Source: a virus. Taken from it: a stretch of 64,000 bases of DNA. The stretch is taken from positions 27,187 through 91,186 of IMG/VR virus record IMGVR_UViG_3300022751_000017; one strand, written 5' to 3'. Shown here in pieces: positions 402 through 48,403 of the stretch. The position numbers and the translations under genes were made by a program. Numbering within the stretch: position 1 is the first letter of the stretch; the number at the start of each line of letters is the position of its first letter. The notes beneath the pieces were generated by a model that saw only the letters and a list, made by a program, of their open reading frames with translations, was not told the origin of the DNA and ran no database searches.

Positions 402-482
402 CAAATTACCTTTTAAAATGCTATACGTATGAATATATAAAAAACATTGGCGACTTTTATCTTTTATACGCTTTTCCCTAAA

Positions 483-622
483 TTACCACCTTTACAAAAG
501 CTTATCCACGCTCGATATAAATAGATATGCCTAAATTATGGCGTAACTGTGTCTTTATGCGTGGATGGGTTGTGGTAAACCTAAGGGATGCACAGAGAAC
601 TACAGTTACGCCTTGTTTTTTT
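483..622 (+). ncRNA. Structured pseudoknot RNA, copy 1
   Basis: Three helices can be drawn by eye. P1 is TTACCAC (483-489) with GTGGTAA (572-578). P2 is ATCCACGC (504-511) with GCGTGGAT (559-566), nested inside P1. P3 is GGCGTAACTGT (540-550) with ACAGTTACGCC (602-612), which crosses P1 and P2 and so forms a pseudoknot. P3 is followed by TTG and a run of seven T, like an intrinsic terminator. A second copy at 750-885 keeps every helix with different bases, which is strong evidence for a functional RNA. Invariant stretches are TGTGTCTTT, GTGGTAA and CCTAAGG. The family is not recognised. It could be a riboswitch or attenuator, a self-contained small RNA, or a ribozyme. No protein gene is supported in 242-912. 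Confidence 0.65.
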
Positions 623-749
623 CAAACGGCTGCAAGGTAAATGTATTTTGCTAATGCTTTATGTTTAAATTTGCCGGTACACAACAAACCAGATAAACAC
701 ATATGGATAGATAAAAAACTGCATTCCGAGAAGATTATTGCACCTTGAA

Positions 750-885
750 TTACCACAGTTTGAATTGCAAATTCCTTCCTTACACAAATGACTATGACGA
801 TGCGCCGCATGGCGTAGTTGTGTCTTTGTGTAAGAGGCCGTGGTAAGCCTAAGGTGCAAGGAATAACGACTACGCTATTTTATTT
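750..885 (+). ncRNA. Structured pseudoknot RNA, copy 2
   Basis: Same topology as the copy at 483. P1 is TTACCAC (750-756) with GTGGTAA (840-846). P2 is CTTACACAAA (779-788) with TTTGTGTAAG (825-834). P3 is GGCGTAGTTG (811-820) with CGACTACGCT (867-876), crossing P1 and P2, and is followed by a T-rich tract. P2 is entirely different in sequence from copy 1 yet fully paired. P3 and the small GGC/GCC stem flanking GTGGTAA also show compensatory changes. It ends only about 30 nt before the start codon of the outer-membrane protein gene, so it may act as that gene's leader. Confidence 0.65.
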
Positions 886-903
886 TATAACGGCCACCTT
901 AAA

Positions 904-910
904 TTACCAC
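904..910 (+). promoter_or_regulatory. Third TTACCAC element at the OMP ribosome-binding region
   Basis: The heptamer that opens both upstream RNAs recurs 2 nt before the ATG at 913, within a shared CACCTTnAATTACCACA context. It is perfectly complementary to the GTGGTAA loop kept in both RNA copies. The RNAs could therefore pair with the start region of this mRNA in cis or in trans. It could instead be only the 5' remnant of a third copy of the unit. Confidence 0.4.
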
Positions 911-912
911 AA

Positions 913-1566
913 ATGAAGAAGCCACTAATTGCTATCCTGGCGCTGCTCAGCACTGGGGTAAAAGCGCAGGATATTGCGCCAAAGAATCACACCAAAAATC
1001 AACACGTATTTGAGATATATGCAAATTACGGCATAGGGTTAAGTACATCCATGTCCGGGAATGCACTTTCTAATACTACAAATGAAAAATGGACAATTAA
1101 AGATGTTCCGTCCTATTCTGGCGGAGCCTCCATTTACATCATAAAGAGGCTGAATGTCGGTATATCTGCGCGCTCGTCTGTGTGGAATACGACATCTAAG
1201 CTAAGCGACAATATTACGGGTCCTACGGTATCTCCCAGGGTTACTACAGGCAAGACTTCGGTACTCTCTGTTTCTGCCTTTGCAAATTATAATCAGCCCA
1301 TTGGTAAAGGTGTTATCTATGTCGGAGGATCTGTTGGGTATGCCATTGCCAATGGTGACACGAAGCATCTTGCCAAAGGGAAAGGCCGCGATATGAATGG
1401 CCATATAGGCTATGCTCATCCTGTAGTAGGCCAAATATTATGGGTCACAGCTGAAGCCGGTATGTCCCAGGCAAAGATCACTCCCGATGGTCAGGTATTC
1501 TCGATAAAGCGAATATATTCTGTCACTAACTATCCGGTTTCTCTTGGATTAAAGGTCAGGATTTAA
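913..1566 (+). CDS. Outer-membrane beta-barrel-like protein with signal peptide, 217 aa
   Basis: Residues 1-19 form a signal peptide (MKKPLIAILALLSTGVKAQ) with an AQ cleavage site. The mature part is about 198 residues of alternating polar/hydrophobic strands with many Gly, Tyr and Ser (for example YVGGSVGYAIANG). It closes with SLGLKVRI, like the last strand of a small outer-membrane barrel. Size and pattern fit an eight-stranded barrel, but no family is recognised. It is unusual cargo for a phage and may alter the surface of infected or lysogenic cells (inference). It is the first gene of a plus-strand accessory block and lies directly downstream of the two pseudoknot RNAs, so RNA-based control is plausible. 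Confidence 0.7.
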   Translation: MKKPLIAILALLSTGVKAQDIAPKNHTKNQHVFEIYANYGIGLSTSMSGNALSNTTNEKWTIKDVPSYSGGASIYIIKRLNVGISARSSVWNTTSKLSDNITGPTVSPRVTTGKTSVLSVSAFANYNQPIGKGVIYVGGSVGYAIANGDTKHLAKGKGRDMNGHIGYAHPVVGQILWVTAEAGMSQAKITPDGQVFSIKRIYSVTNYPVSLGLKVRI

Positions 1567-9716: not shown

Positions 9717-11336
9717 TTATTTTTCTGGAACTTCCACTATTGCGCATTCAGTTGTTAGGAACATCCCGGCAACGGAGCTTGCATTTTCCAGGGACACACG
9801 AAGAACCTTAGCTGGATCTATAACGCCAGTGGCCAATAAGTCTGCATATTCATTTGTTTTGGCATTGTATCCAAAGTTGGGCGCCATTGATGTGCAGATA
9901 TCATATTTTATAGACGATATTTCAGATTGAGTGATGCCGGCGTTTTTTAGTATCTGTATCAAAGGTGCGGCCAATGATTCTACTATAAGATTGTATCCAT
10001 GCACTTCATCTGTAGATTTTGATGAGGTATCTCCTATTGAGTTCTGAGCTTTCAGATAGGCTATGCCGCCACCAGGCACTATACCTTCTTCCAAGGCGGC
10101 CTTCGTAGCACACAGTGCGTCATCTACGCGATCCATCTTTTCTTTCACCTCTATCTCACTGAATCCACCTACATTAATGACCGCCATACCGCTAGTGAGC
10201 TTGGCCAGACGTACCTCCATCTTAGGCCTTTCATAAGCGGTGATCTCTGTTCCATTGATGATGCCGCGGAGTTCTTCGGCTCGTTCAGATATTGCCAATT
10301 GATTGCCTCTTCCGCCTATTATAGTGGTGCTATCACGACCAACAACCACTTTTTCTGCTGACCCCAGCCATGCGTGTGTGCAGTCCTTAGGCTTCATGTT
10401 AAGGTCTTTATCTATAACCGTTCCACCTACCTGGATGGCGATGTCCTGCAGCATTTCTTTCTGAGCCCCGCCGTATCCAGGCATACGTATAGCGCATGCT
10501 TTAATATTGCCTCGGACAGTGTTTATACTAAGGGTTGAGAGGGCTTCGCTGTCGGCATCGCTGCATATAATCAGCAATGAGCGCTTCTTGTCAGGTGTAG
10601 ATCCTTTAGTGCATATTTCCATCACGCTTAGTATGTCAGTGAATGTACTTAGCTTATCCGGGCAAAGCATGATCAGTGGGTTGTCCAATATTGCTTCTGC
10701 TTTTGGCTTATCTGTTATGAATGCCGGGCTCAGATATCCTTTATCAATAGAAAGTCCGGATACTACTGACACAAATGTATCGGTGCTGCGGGACTCCTGT
10801 TTTTGTATCAGTCCATCATTACCTACGCGCAGGACTGCATCAGCTATGTGTTTACCTATTTCTTCATCATTGTTCGCAGATATGGTAGCAATGCTGAGTA
10901 CTTCCTGGCTGTCATTGGCTATCTGCTTTGCCTGTAGCTTAATATTAGCTACAACATCGGCTACGGCATTGTCCATACCACGTTTTAGTTCTACTGGATT
11001 GGCGCCATTGGCAACAAGCTTCATGCCCTCAGTAATGAGGTATTGGGTGAGCACTGTTGATGTGGTTGTACCATCACCGGCTTCGCCTGCGGTTTTACGC
11101 GCTACCGCCTTGATCATCTGTGCTCCGCTATCCTCATAAGGATCTGATAATGTCCTGACGTTCTGCGCCACGGTAACACCATCCTTAGTTATGAATGGGT
11201 TCTGGCCACTATTTTGCTGTATGGTAACATTGCGTCCTTTAGGACCCAGTGTTACTTTTACTGCATCAGCTACCTTGTCTATGCCTGCCTTCATTTTGTT
11301 CCGGGCATCGGAATTAAATTGCAATTGTGTGCTCAT
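9717..11336 (-). CDS. groEL: Phage chaperonin GroEL (Hsp60), 539 aa
   Basis: A full-length group I chaperonin. Seen in order are TLGPKGRNV (29-37) and ITKDGVTV (49-56, Asp52) of the ATP site, GDGTTTSTV (87-95, Asp88), an apical-domain stretch GYLSPAFITDKPK, GYGGAQKEML, and near the C-terminus RVDDALCATKAALEEGIVPG followed by GG, the classical family signature with its catalytic Asp. The cytosolic ATP-driven folding ring is the known role. It lacks the usual GGM-repeat tail and ends ...TTECAIVEVPEK. It is the second gene of a minus-strand pair, 27 nt after the multi-domain GroES-like gene. It probably folds phage virion proteins together with that partner (inference). Confidence 0.95.
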   Translation of the reverse strand: MSTQLQFNSDARNKMKAGIDKVADAVKVTLGPKGRNVTIQQNSGQNPFITKDGVTVAQNVRTLSDPYEDSGAQMIKAVARKTAGEAGDGTTTSTVLTQYLITEGMKLVANGANPVELKRGMDNAVADVVANIKLQAKQIANDSQEVLSIATISANNDEEIGKHIADAVLRVGNDGLIQKQESRSTDTFVSVVSGLSIDKGYLSPAFITDKPKAEAILDNPLIMLCPDKLSTFTDILSVMEICTKGSTPDKKRSLLIICSDADSEALSTLSINTVRGNIKACAIRMPGYGGAQKEMLQDIAIQVGGTVIDKDLNMKPKDCTHAWLGSAEKVVVGRDSTTIIGGRGNQLAISERAEELRGIINGTEITAYERPKMEVRLAKLTSGMAVINVGGFSEIEVKEKMDRVDDALCATKAALEEGIVPGGGIAYLKAQNSIGDTSSKSTDEVHGYNLIVESLAAPLIQILKNAGITQSEISSIKYDICTSMAPNFGYNAKTNEYADLLATGVIDPAKVLRVSLENASSVAGMFLTTECAIVEVPEK

Positions 11337-11363
11337 ATTTTGGTTGTGGGATAAAAATGAAAA

Positions 11364-13049
11364 TTATTCTTCAGTAAAGGTAAGCAGGTCGTTTTGGTGC
11401 ATCACCAGATGCTCGACACCATCTATAGCGATCTCTGCGCCGGCCATGCGTTTAAAGTACACGACATTACCCTCTGATACTATCATAGGTATCTTATCGG
11501 TGCCTGGGCCAACTCTTATAACTCTGCCTTTTACAGGGCGCTCCTTGGCATCCTCTGGAAGTATCAGGTGTGATTCTTTCTTATCTTCTATTGGCAGGAT
11601 AAGAACTTTGTCTCCGAATGGCGTGTGTATTGTGTTGCCCATGTCGTCTTTGTGTGTTTTAAGTAAAATAAAATGTTCGTGTGCTATTATGAAGTTCTCT
11701 CCCAGCAGCGTTATTGGGTATAGTTCCTTAAATGTTGCTACTATCTTTCGGTTACCTTTAATCGGGGTGCAAATGACAGCATGATTCTTATTGACATAGG
11801 CAGCTTTCTCAAGCGCATCCGTCTTTAGTCCTTCTATGCTCGTTTCCAATGCTTGCAATTCTTCTTTCTGTGCAGGGTCTGCAGGGTTAAGCATGCGGTG
11901 CTTGTTGGATAAGCGCTGAAATGTAGCAGTGTACTTACCTGCACCTTCTTTCTTCTTTTCAGCTATTATATTCTGAAGTGCCGGCAGTGTTTTTATATCA
12001 TTGAACGTATAGTCCATGTTATGCAGTTCAGACCTTGGGATTTCTTTTTTCTCAAAAAGTTCAATCTCTGGCTTAAGAAATATGTTCCTGTCAAATGGTT
12101 TGATAGTGCTCAGCTGTGGTATTGGGTTTGTGGATAGATTATTCCTGGATTCCATCATCCCGAAGATTTCTCTTCCGTCATGTGAGAAACAGTTGATCAT
12201 AATGTACGCATACTTTGATTTTCCATCTTTGCCTTTTTTCTCTCGGAGCATGCGGTACTGCTGGTGCTCTACCGTGTGATGGAGTATCGCAAAGCAGCCA
12301 GGGCGAAGCTTAGGGTACATCTTGGCTGCTTCTGAACCTATGCTGACAACTTTAGCATACTGCAGGTTGTACATCATGTGTATATATGCCTCCGGGCGTA
12401 TCAGGCCACTTGCCATTTCAAACCGGCTGCGCTTCTGCTCATTGATGTCTACGCGTACTATTATTTTGTGTGGCGCAGCCTTTTCATTTACTGAGTATAT
12501 ATCACGCTCAAATAATACTTCCATGATGCGGCCATCGACATTAGCTGTGGGGTACATGCCTTGTTCTGCCTTCCTGTATTCTACTGTATCCCCTACCTTA
12601 AATAAAGAGCCTGGAGGGACCGCATGTATTATTCCTTTTTGAGGGACCCCCAGCGTTTCGTCAGGAATGATGATACCGCCATCGCTCACCATTTTGCCAG
12701 ATAGTGGTTCAATGAATAGCCGGTTGAATGGAGTATTATCAACCGACCATATTTCGTTCTCAAAAAGCAGGTCCAGTTCTTCTCCTGCTATCTCTATTCC
12801 GCTGTACCGCTCCTCCGGGTTATTGCGCTCGATCTTGCGATAAGATACGTGTGCACCCACCGGTATTTCTGAGCCTTCGCAGTTGGAAATAACGACACCG
12901 GTTTCGCAAACCACATTTGCATCTTTTGGTATTTCGATACCGTGCTGGTTTACCACTGCAGGATGTTCGTCCGGGCGCACGATAAGGCGCCTTGATATTG
13001 CTCCGCTATTGTTGATGTAGGGGATGCTGGTTAAATTATGTGTGTGCAT
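11364..13049 (-). CDS. Multi-domain GroES-like co-chaperonin, 561 aa
   Basis: Normal GroES is about 95-100 aa and forms a heptamer. This protein is nearly six times longer. Cpn10-like units are visible at about 18-103 (RRLIVRPDE...YRKIER), 107-187 (FNRLFIEPL...GGIIIPDE...VGDTVEYRK) and 193-300 (HKIIVRV...). A unit at about 318-463 appears split by a charged helical insert (352-418). A canonical last unit covers 476-561 (FGDKVLILPIE, LPEDAKERPVKGRVIRVGPG, NDLLTF). Units two and five are clear; the others are degenerate. Position just upstream of groEL supports a co-chaperonin role. A tandem chain could cap the ring with fewer molecules, or present different loops. The start is preceded by an operator-like palindrome 17 nt upstream. 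Confidence 0.85.
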   Translation of the reverse strand: MHTHNLTSIPYINNSGAISRRLIVRPDEHPAVVNQHGIEIPKDANVVCETGVVISNCEGSEIPVGAHVSYRKIERNNPEERYSGIEIAGEELDLLFENEIWSVDNTPFNRLFIEPLSGKMVSDGGIIIPDETLGVPQKGIIHAVPPGSLFKVGDTVEYRKAEQGMYPTANVDGRIMEVLFERDIYSVNEKAAPHKIIVRVDINEQKRSRFEMASGLIRPEAYIHMMYNLQYAKVVSIGSEAAKMYPKLRPGCFAILHHTVEHQQYRMLREKKGKDGKSKYAYIMINCFSHDGREIFGMMESRNNLSTNPIPQLSTIKPFDRNIFLKPEIELFEKKEIPRSELHNMDYTFNDIKTLPALQNIIAEKKKEGAGKYTATFQRLSNKHRMLNPADPAQKEELQALETSIEGLKTDALEKAAYVNKNHAVICTPIKGNRKIVATFKELYPITLLGENFIIAHEHFILLKTHKDDMGNTIHTPFGDKVLILPIEDKKESHLILPEDAKERPVKGRVIRVGPGTDKIPMIVSEGNVVYFKRMAGAEIAIDGVEHLVMHQNDLLTFTEE

Positions 13050-47509: not shown

Positions 47510-48403
47510 ATGAAAATGTCACCATTAGTTATCAGTTTTTCAGGTGGTCGCACAAGCGGCATGATGACGAAATTGTTACTCGATAAATACAGAGGGAAAC
47601 GGGAGATAGTCGTAATATTCTCAAATACCGGCAAGGAGTACGAGGAAACACTGCAATTTGTACATAACTGCGACACGTATTTCGGTTTTAATACCGTATG
47701 GATTGAGAGTGTACAGAACCACGGCCAGCGTAAAAGCGCAGGATATAGGGTTGTTTCATTTGAAACCGCTGACCGAACTGGCGCACCATTCGAGGACATG
47801 ATTAAAAAACATGGCATACCCAATAAGCCTTTCCCGCATTGTAGCCGGGAGCTTAAAAATAAGCCCACTCTCAATTACATAAAAGAAGTGCTTAAATGGG
47901 ATTGGTACGAAATAGCGTTAGGTATGCGTATTGACGAACCCGCAAGGCTCACTGTTAAAGAAAATGTAGGTTACCCAATGGCTTACGAATGGCCGACAAC
48001 TAAGCTAATGGTAAATAAATGGTGGCTTAAACAACCATTTGATTTAGATATGTCTCGCTTTACAGGCGGTACACCATTCCCTGAATACATGGGTAACTGC
48101 GATAGATGCTGGAAGAAATCAAAGAGAAAATTACTAACACTTGTAAAGGAAGGGGCGCATCGGAATGATTGGTGGAATGACATGGAAATAAAATACGGGC
48201 ATTTCGTGCCTGAAGGGCAGAAAGAAAAAAGGATAGTTCCGATAACATTCTTTCGAGAGAATGAAAGCATGCAAGACCTTATAGAAGATTGTAAGTTCCC
48301 TTTTGAAAAAGCATCAGATACATTCACACTTCAACAGCTTATGTTTTCGGATCCGGAATTAGATTTTACTGATGGATGCGAAGAAAGTTGCGAAGCATTC
48401 TGA
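47510..48403 (+). CDS. PP-loop ATP-pyrophosphatase (PAPS-reductase/DndC-like), 297 aa
   Basis: The PP-loop SFSGGRTSG at residues 9-17 activates a substrate with ATP, as in PAPS reductases and relatives. FSNTGKEYEET is the second typical segment. NCDRCWKKSKRK around residue 197 and CEESCEAF at the end give Cys pairs for an Fe-S or zinc site. Phage members of this family are usually of unknown substrate; sulfur modification of DNA or RNA and other nucleotidyl chemistry are possibilities. The family is clear but the reaction is not. The leader carries a kissing-loop structure. Confidence 0.8.
   Translation: MKMSPLVISFSGGRTSGMMTKLLLDKYRGKREIVVIFSNTGKEYEETLQFVHNCDTYFGFNTVWIESVQNHGQRKSAGYRVVSFETADRTGAPFEDMIKKHGIPNKPFPHCSRELKNKPTLNYIKEVLKWDWYEIALGMRIDEPARLTVKENVGYPMAYEWPTTKLMVNKWWLKQPFDLDMSRFTGGTPFPEYMGNCDRCWKKSKRKLLTLVKEGAHRNDWWNDMEIKYGHFVPEGQKEKRIVPITFFRENESMQDLIEDCKFPFEKASDTFTLQQLMFSDPELDFTDGCEESCEAF

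Follow-up and report, generated by a model that had tools for sequence, protein, structure and literature searches.

The window analyzed here, by which we mean the whole 64,000-nucleotide stretch of DNA, covers positions 27187-91186 of a virus record that is 91,186 bases long, and its terminase shows 27-31% identity to those of Cellulophaga phi38:1-type and Flavobacterium elemo phages, a distant relationship. Two tandem RNAs of approximately 150 nt each (about 469-622 and 738-889) share a common pseudoknotted fold and lie in a gap of approximately 590 bases that extends from a terminator-like hairpin (about 287-320) to a gene encoding a 217-aa protein (913-1566), for which neither Pfam nor PHROG contains a match (Table 1). 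Within each unit, the sequence GGCGTA has two alternative partners, either a local TRCGCC (helix P5) or the 3' stem that precedes the T-tract (helix P3). P1 crosses P4 and P3 crosses P1 and P2, and these crossings are met in both window units and in the 88 aligned family members described below. Each unit is preceded by an AT-rich box that occurs nowhere else in the window at fewer than three mismatches. That these boxes are promoters is an inference, since promoter activity has not been shown. Separately, we observed that two blocks, TATGNRTARATAAA and GTATTRTANCAT, are conserved just 5' of the RNA in many members (L148, L160, L163, and the window at 425-445 and 699-719). They differ from the usual Bacteroidota -33/-7 promoter and could conceivably represent a promoter for an alternative sigma factor.

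Table 1. Positions of the two RNA units, their helices and their neighboring elements in the window.
Feature	Position	Strand	Basis
Promoter-like AT-rich box, unit 1 (ACGTATGAATATATAAAAAAC)	425..445	+	Recurs before unit 2
Unit 1, full-length structured RNA	469..622	+	R2 match 457-623, 91.6 bits; unit 1 is a training sequence
P1' 5' strand, unit 1 (CCCT); partner AGGG, 584-587	476..479	+	Sequence; helix 1 covaries at 8/8 pairs, 88 members
P1 5' strand, unit 1 (TTACCAC); partner 572-578	483..489	+	Sequence; helix 2 in 88 members
P2, unit 1: ATCCACGC/GCGTGGAT	504-511/559-566	+	Sequence, covariation count
P5 5' strand, unit 1 (TATGCC); competitor for GGCGTA 540-545	526..531	+	99.2% of cells paired, 88 members
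P3 5' strand, unit 1 (GGCGTAACTGT); partner 602-612	540..550	+	Helix 5 pairing count
P4 hairpin, unit 1: GGT-[T GTGGTAA]-ACC; presents P1 3' strand	568..581	+	Helix 6 pairing count
P3 3' strand and T-tract, unit 1; intrinsic-terminator-like	602..622	+	T-tract in 83/88 members
Promoter-like box, unit 2 (ACATATGGATAGATAAAAAAC)	699..719	+	Counterpart of 425-445 box
Unit 2, full-length structured RNA	738..889	+	R2 match 726-887, 89.7 bits
P1' 5' strand, unit 2 (TTGCACCTT); partner AAGGTGCAA, 851-859	738..746	+	Sequence, covariation count
P1 5' strand, unit 2 (TTACCAC); partner 840-846	750..756	+	Sequence, covariation count
P2, unit 2: CTTACACAAA/TTTGTGTAAG	779-788/825-834	+	Sequence, covariation count
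P5 5' strand, unit 2 (TGCGCC); competitor for GGCGTA 811-816	801..806	+	P5 pairing count, 88 members
P3 5' strand, unit 2 (GGCGTAGTTG); partner 867-876	811..820	+	Covariation count
P4 hairpin, unit 2: GGC-[C GTGGTAA]-GCC	836..849	+	Covariation count
P3 3' strand and T-rich tract, unit 2	867..889	+	Sequence; family T-tract count
P1c, third copy of RNA 5' strand (CCTTAAATTACCAC)	897..910	+	2 nt 5' of ATG 913; own 7-mer in 42/88
Gene behind the RNAs, 217-aa protein	913..1566	+	Signal-peptide-like N-terminus, outer-membrane-like

An initial annotation had described two tandem copies with a shared crossing topology, and this held, as every element that it listed was found where it had been placed. 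The differing P2 and P3 stems, the small stem that reads GGT/ACC in one copy and GGC/GCC in the other, and the T-rich ends were likewise confirmed in both copies. The positions at which it began the copies, 483 and 750, are too far 3', because the outer stem P1' encloses P1 and places the start of each RNA 5' of them. GTGGTAA, which it took for an invariant loop, is indeed the same in both copies, but it is complementary to the upstream TTACCAC and thus not a free loop. Its claim of compensatory changes in every helix was too strong for two copies, between which the GGCGTA of P3 and all seven P1 pairs are unchanged; the covariation at these positions comes from other members of the family. TGTGTCTTT and CCTAAGG, also proposed as invariants, failed across the family once members retrieved with patterns that include them were set aside. 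The 5' strand pairing of P1' and P1, the second partner of GGCGTA, the third copy of the 5' strand at 897-910, and the position of the RNAs before a gene on the same strand had all been missed.

To search for relatives, we built a covariance model, R1, from units 1 and 2 alone. Among contigs fetched by the loose pattern GGCGTANNTGTGTCTTT, R1 found a locus (L088) with a score of 53.8 bits (E 5e-8), which lies in a tailed phage that encodes a terminase, a portal, and head proteins. The RNA at this locus keeps all of the helix partners with different P1', P1, and P2 sequences (P1 TCGCCAG/CTGGCGA, P2 CCCAAAG/CTTTGGG, P1' CATGC/GTATG). When 84,980 bacterial and archaeal genomes were searched with a pattern containing only P3, 39 contigs were retrieved, nearly all labelled Bacteroidota. 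With R1, almost all of these reach 21-84 bits, and 38 loci from bacteria and phages reach 28-84 bits. Because a model built from two copies finds the L088 RNA and then these 38 loci, a chance origin of the resemblance between the two copies is excluded.

A second covariance model, R2, was made from 38 sequences using nested helices only, with P3 and P4 left out. Without the aid of any pattern, R2 identified one to six members per genome in 18 genomes. Members were present in 23 of 150 genomes of one family and, under a strict filter that makes the figure a lower bound, in at least 5 of 396 genomes drawn phylum-wide. In a Pseudomonadota control, no member was found in any of 298 other genomes; the single match there was the MAG used as centre, whose RNA-bearing sequence also occurs unchanged in a Bacteroidetes bin. 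We note as a separate observation that an identical RNA-bearing stretch occurs in metagenome bins labelled 'Bacteroidetes' and 'beta proteobacterium' (L139 and L150), which is likely due to mis-binning in public data. The 88 aligned members come from Bacteroidota chromosomes and three phage records, the third of which (L281) scores 45.8 bits. Holders include Chitinophagaceae, Flavipsychrobacter, Taibaiella, Mucilaginibacter, and uncultured bins, again with one to six RNAs per genome.

Other routes to relatives were unproductive within their scope. Strict patterns (GTGTC..GTGGTAANCCTAAGG) returned nothing from viral or genome contigs because GTGGTAA covaries with its partner, and all nine matches to TTACCAC..GTGGTAARCCTA were chance occurrences in coding DNA. 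A candidate at L165 was rejected on the same grounds, as a chance match in coding DNA. No member was found by R1 in 35 phage records with a related terminase, indicating that the occurrence of the RNA does not track phage descent. Searches with blastn against phages and plasmids gave only chance matches, and neighboring gene products used as bait yielded no relatives. No Rfam 15 family scores above its gathering cut-off on the RNA in the window or in six members, scans of three stretches at a permissive threshold also gave nothing at the RNA, and a limited check of the literature found no description of it. The fold and the family are new to Rfam, while the structured leader or small RNA is already known as a functional kind.

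The proposed helices are strongly supported by the alignment of 88 members. Standard pairs fill 93.9% of base-pair cells, compared with 72.1% after shuffling and 32-43% when the partners are slid, and 35 of the 37 pairs show changes on both sides. Seven of the eight pairs of helix 2 (P1) are formed by nearly all members, with double changes at every pair, and P5 is paired in 99.2% of cells. P3 (helix 5) is 96.8% paired, with double changes at 8 of 10 pairs, and P4 (helix 6) is 96.9% paired; since both of these helices were absent from the search model, they provide independent confirmation of the crossing topology. Given that the first genome set had been fetched by P3 sequence, the count was repeated on 46 members that were not chosen by a pattern. 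In these, P1 is 99.4%, P1' 95.0%, and P4 96.3% paired, and the P3 extension is 87.5% paired compared with 72.2% after shuffling. The best-kept positions among members not chosen by pattern are the A's at the P1'/P1 junction, the GG/CC of P4, the P3 pair G165-C253, and the T-tract. Outside the helices, only the junction A's, a few U or G positions, and the T-tract exceed 80% conservation. Covariation thus establishes an RNA family with all of its helices, including both crossing ones, and with mutually exclusive P5 and P3 pairings.

The RNAs occupy a fixed position relative to genes. A T-tract, defined as seven or more T among the 12 nt that follow P3, is present in 83 of 88 members against a background of 6%, and an ORF of at least 60 aa begins on the same strand 10-60 nt 3' of P3 in 77 of 88, compared with 13% at random. 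The gap from P3 to the ATG has a median of 32 nt (quartiles 28-36). This fixed position before same-strand ORFs indicates that the RNA is a gene-preceding element and not an unlinked small RNA. The downstream genes usually encode secreted- or lipoprotein-like proteins, mostly of 100-400 aa, and a crude hydropathy test detected a hydrophobic N-terminus in 61 of 83 of them as opposed to 45 of 159 other ORFs from the same loci. Collagen-like (7) and EGF-like (6) lipoproteins and response regulators (2) recur, and DUF1036, DUF4468, RDD, and superinfection-immunity proteins are also represented. The few tiny membrane proteins (60-90 aa) found downstream include one with a superinfection-immunity domain. 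Neither a toxin nor a single defence system is evident downstream, where padloc matches were limited to isolated cases such as a single methylase and a single restriction-like protein, and no ToxN/CptN/TenpN-like toxin domain was found among the Pfam or PADLOC families of 81 downstream proteins.

The view of the initial annotation that the two copies belong to a real RNA family, and not a known one, is therefore supported by homologs, by covariation in every helix, and by the absence of an Rfam match. Of the checks that it had suggested, a covariance model built from the two copies and a comparison with Rfam were run; the former found homologs in Bacteroidota and phage and the latter matched no family. 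Its expectation of hits upstream of phage genes was met in part, as members do precede genes, but mostly in bacterial chromosomes. Among the three classes that it offered, the data agree best with small RNAs or leader RNAs that include an expression switch; a ligand-binding riboswitch remains a possibility, although nothing points to a ligand, and we found no support for a ribozyme.

The RNA and the start of the gene behind it share a sequence that is particular to the locus. In 42 of 88 loci, the P1 7-mer of the local RNA is found again before the ATG, whereas 2000 permutations give 5.3 such loci on average and 13 at most; 7-mers of other loci or types occur at the gene start in only 0.2%. 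In 40 of the 42 loci, this copy ends no more than 6 nt from the ATG. Identity between the 5' strand (P1a) and the gene-start copy (P1c) is locus-specific only where the strands pair (positions -9 to -4 and 0 to 6), that is, in P1 and the inner part of P1', and in the unpaired junction and flanks the two match no better than those of swapped loci. Selection for pairing with one common third strand would be expected to leave this pattern; an origin of P1c by DNA duplication would not, and was rejected because the identity stops at pairing positions. The third strand is the one presented by the P4 loop (P1b with P1'b), whose duplex with its own leader has a mean energy of -19.2 kcal/mol, compared with -8.9 kcal/mol for swapped leaders; the own-leader duplex beats the swapped median in 40 of 40 cases. 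At L147, the minimum-energy fold of the readthrough mRNA is predicted to pair P1b with the gene start. Most predicted folds, however, leave the RNA's own 5' strand paired, so the switch would need a trigger that has not been identified.

Tandem RNAs provide a further view of this address. Where two RNAs precede one gene, in the window and at L248, the 7-nt P1 sequence is the same at 7/7 positions despite only 54-55% overall identity (approximately 54% for units 1 and 2). In the L088 phage, inspection by eye reveals TCGCCAG twice in RNAs and again before each ATG. Two RNAs at L131 that precede separate genes have differing P1 7-mers at 68% identity. About half of the members lack an exact P1c and a few have imperfect ones. 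RNAs of the GTCGAA type have no P1c-ATG anywhere in 12 genomes, and the idea that they act on distant P1c-ATG sites was rejected for want of such sites in those genomes. Masking of the start codon therefore cannot be the whole mechanism. A locus-specific address shared by RNA and gene start, where it stands 1-5 nt 5' of the ATG, is demonstrated in about half of the loci; action in trans rests on two or three tandem cases, in which shared descent could also account for the common P1.

Our main reading is that the element is a self-terminating leader or small RNA that regulates the gene next to it through an exchange of pairing strands at the start codon, acting in cis and probably also in trans. 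In the absence of expression data we assign it a probability of roughly 0.5. What the sequences do show is that two strands each have two mutually exclusive partners; termination, readthrough, promoter activity, repression as the sign of control, and trans action are inferred without RNA data. Under this reading, each unit would probably be transcribed from its own promoter and end at the P3 stem and T-tract, so that the RNA could be both a free small RNA and, through readthrough, the 5' leader of the gene approximately 30 nt further on. Most transcripts would end at P3 and the T-tract, yielding the free form. Pairing of GGCGTA with the TRCGCC hairpin (P5) would lead to readthrough, and its pairing with the 3' stem (P3) to termination. 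The features of an intrinsic-terminator attenuator are present, namely a stem and T-tract before a gene and a mutually exclusive antiterminator (P5), but the stem before the T-tract has a loop of approximately 50 nt, which is unusual for an intrinsic terminator. The P4-loop strand (P1b, GTGGTAA in the phage, together with P1'b) would pair either with the 5' end of the same RNA or with P1c, and the latter pairing would mask the translation start, with the 7-nt P1 sequence serving as a locus-specific address. Units 1 and 2, which carry the same address, may act together to repress the surface-protein gene at 913, which unit 1, the upstream unit, could reach only in trans. Members without a P1c copy, most clearly the GTCGAA type, may rely on termination alone or on something else.

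A bolder reading, against which we would lean slightly, is that these RNAs form a modular 'addressed' leader-RNA system in which each gene cassette has its own pseudoknot small RNA. The address would be written three times, at the RNA's 5' end, in the loop as its complement, and at the gene start, creating a private orthogonal pair, and bacteria and phages would swap RNA-gene pairs and stack them in tandem to set the dose.

Several known systems resemble parts of this arrangement. VrrA of Vibrio cholerae, a 140-nt RNA, base-pairs with the 5' portion of the ompA mRNA and thereby represses this gene (PMC2628432), and MicA and RybB are also envelope-regulating antisense sRNAs. The new family is like VrrA-type sRNAs in being a small terminated RNA able to pair with the 5' region of surface-protein mRNAs, but it sits immediately 5' of its own gene and in the same direction, has a conserved pseudoknot, and contains an internal target mimic with one address per locus. 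The fluoride riboswitch combines a pseudoknot with a terminator (PMC11077080); terminator attenuators and riboswitch platforms share with our RNAs the pseudoknot and the local hairpin that competes with a T-tract stem before a gene, whereas our RNAs have no recognized ligand core and have an extra strand shared with the gene start. The tisB 5' UTR contains a pseudoknot (PMC7708055), and tisB/istR and type I toxin-antitoxins are alike in their structured pseudoknot leader and sRNA pairing near a membrane-protein gene; the new family differs in its single-strand, same-direction layout, its lack of toxin features, and its structure. The RNAs of type III toxin-antitoxins (ToxI) consist of tandem pseudoknots followed by a terminator and an ORF. 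That order is matched here, but with 150-nt units that are usually single, an ORF that is not a ToxN-like RNase, and a promoter-like box on unit 1. Rfp18 and other Flavobacterium sRNAs likewise belong to Bacteroidota and affect secreted proteins, but they are unlinked and act in trans (PMC9723704); no sequence-level comparison with them was made.

The result is an uncatalogued, well-supported structured RNA family for Bacteroidota, a phylum poor in known RNA regulators, that is tied to surface lipoproteins, secreted proteins, and phage genes, and it indicates that phages carry host-type leader RNAs before their own membrane-protein genes. If the address mechanism is correct, it would constitute natural orthogonal leader/small-RNA pairs in which the target sequence is mimicked inside the RNA, and such pairs would be useful as a regulatory part in a group with few of them. 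An address in both RNA and gene start is an unusual variant, and could plausibly lead to something categorically new if orthogonal cis/trans pairing were proven.

The alternative that survives best is a cis-only riboswitch or attenuator that senses a small molecule, ion, or protein and selects P5 (readthrough) or P3 (termination), with the P1c likeness tuning translation of the same mRNA and no trans action. This remains possible. It is favored by the fixed position and orientation before genes, by the mutually exclusive and individually supported P5 and P3, and by the recurrence of downstream gene groups. Against it, no strongly conserved unpaired core such as ligand pockets have is apparent, with mainly junction A's conserved outside the helices, and the address varies among loci of one genome yet is kept between tandem copies that share a gene, which a purely structural helix does not need. 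A mobile or self-targeting element, in which an RNA and gene cassette is inserted at a guide-matching site and P1a/P1c is the duplicated target, is unlikely. The patchy distribution noted above, the presence in three phages, the diverse cargo, and an orientation opposite to the adjoining structural genes in the L088 phage speak for it. However, P1a/P1c identity stops at pairing positions and the two consistently differ in the junction, unlike a target duplication. Copies of the P1 core that follow the ORF (3 of 77, against 0.9 expected) or lie upstream (1 of 88) do not clearly exceed chance.

A self-cleaving or splicing ribozyme that processes the leader, joining or freeing the start region, is very unlikely: the crossing helices are compact and the loop strand can pair on both sides of the RNA, but no Rfam ribozyme matches even at a permissive threshold (HDV-like, twister, pistol, hammerhead, hatchet), there is no invariant unpaired catalytic core, and the RNA ends 3' in a T-tract. 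An HDV-like mapping of CCTAAGG to J4/2 was rejected because the helix order does not fit. Equally improbable is a toxin-antitoxin pair in which the following gene encodes the toxin and the RNA serves as antitoxin, either as a type I antisense RNA or as a type III pseudoknot. Despite the terminated RNA directly before an ORF, the tandem pseudoknots as in type III, and the few tiny membrane proteins, the downstream proteins are mostly 100-400 aa lipoprotein-like or secreted with no toxin domain among the listed families, no known type III toxin is present, and the 150-nt repeats are usually single. Leader-peptide attenuation was rejected as well, since short ORFs are visible by eye in some members but their frame is not conserved.

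A few further observations concern individual members and the window itself. A second, more divergent RNA lies 5' of the scored one in the L088 phage (955-1119, + strand) and was not reported by R2. Its helices are P1 TCGCCAG/CTGGCGA, P1' CATATAGC/GCTATGTG, and P3 GCGGCAAC/GTTGCCGC with a T-tract, and it is followed by AAATCGCCAGAC and then an ATG that opens an ORF of only 7 codons (MNKKPPG). A divergent subgroup (L270, L271, L272, L273, L274, L277, L278, L253, L236, and L237) has the same three-strand exchange but no exact P1c copy, with several members having a P3 of the type GCGTGGG/CCCACGC; some of these RNAs precede genes whose products are not secreted, among them a type III methylase-like one. 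Genomes G044 and G589 each contain about six RNA copies at different positions, and those of G044 carry several different P1 addresses, which fits one address per locus. Elsewhere in the window, a GroEL-like gene (539 aa) is found beside a gene for a 561-aa protein with a C-terminal GroES (Cpn10) domain and a long N-terminal part without assignment (9717-13049, - strand), and an auxiliary phosphoadenosine phosphosulfate reductase-like gene (47510-48403, + strand) lies close to the terminase.
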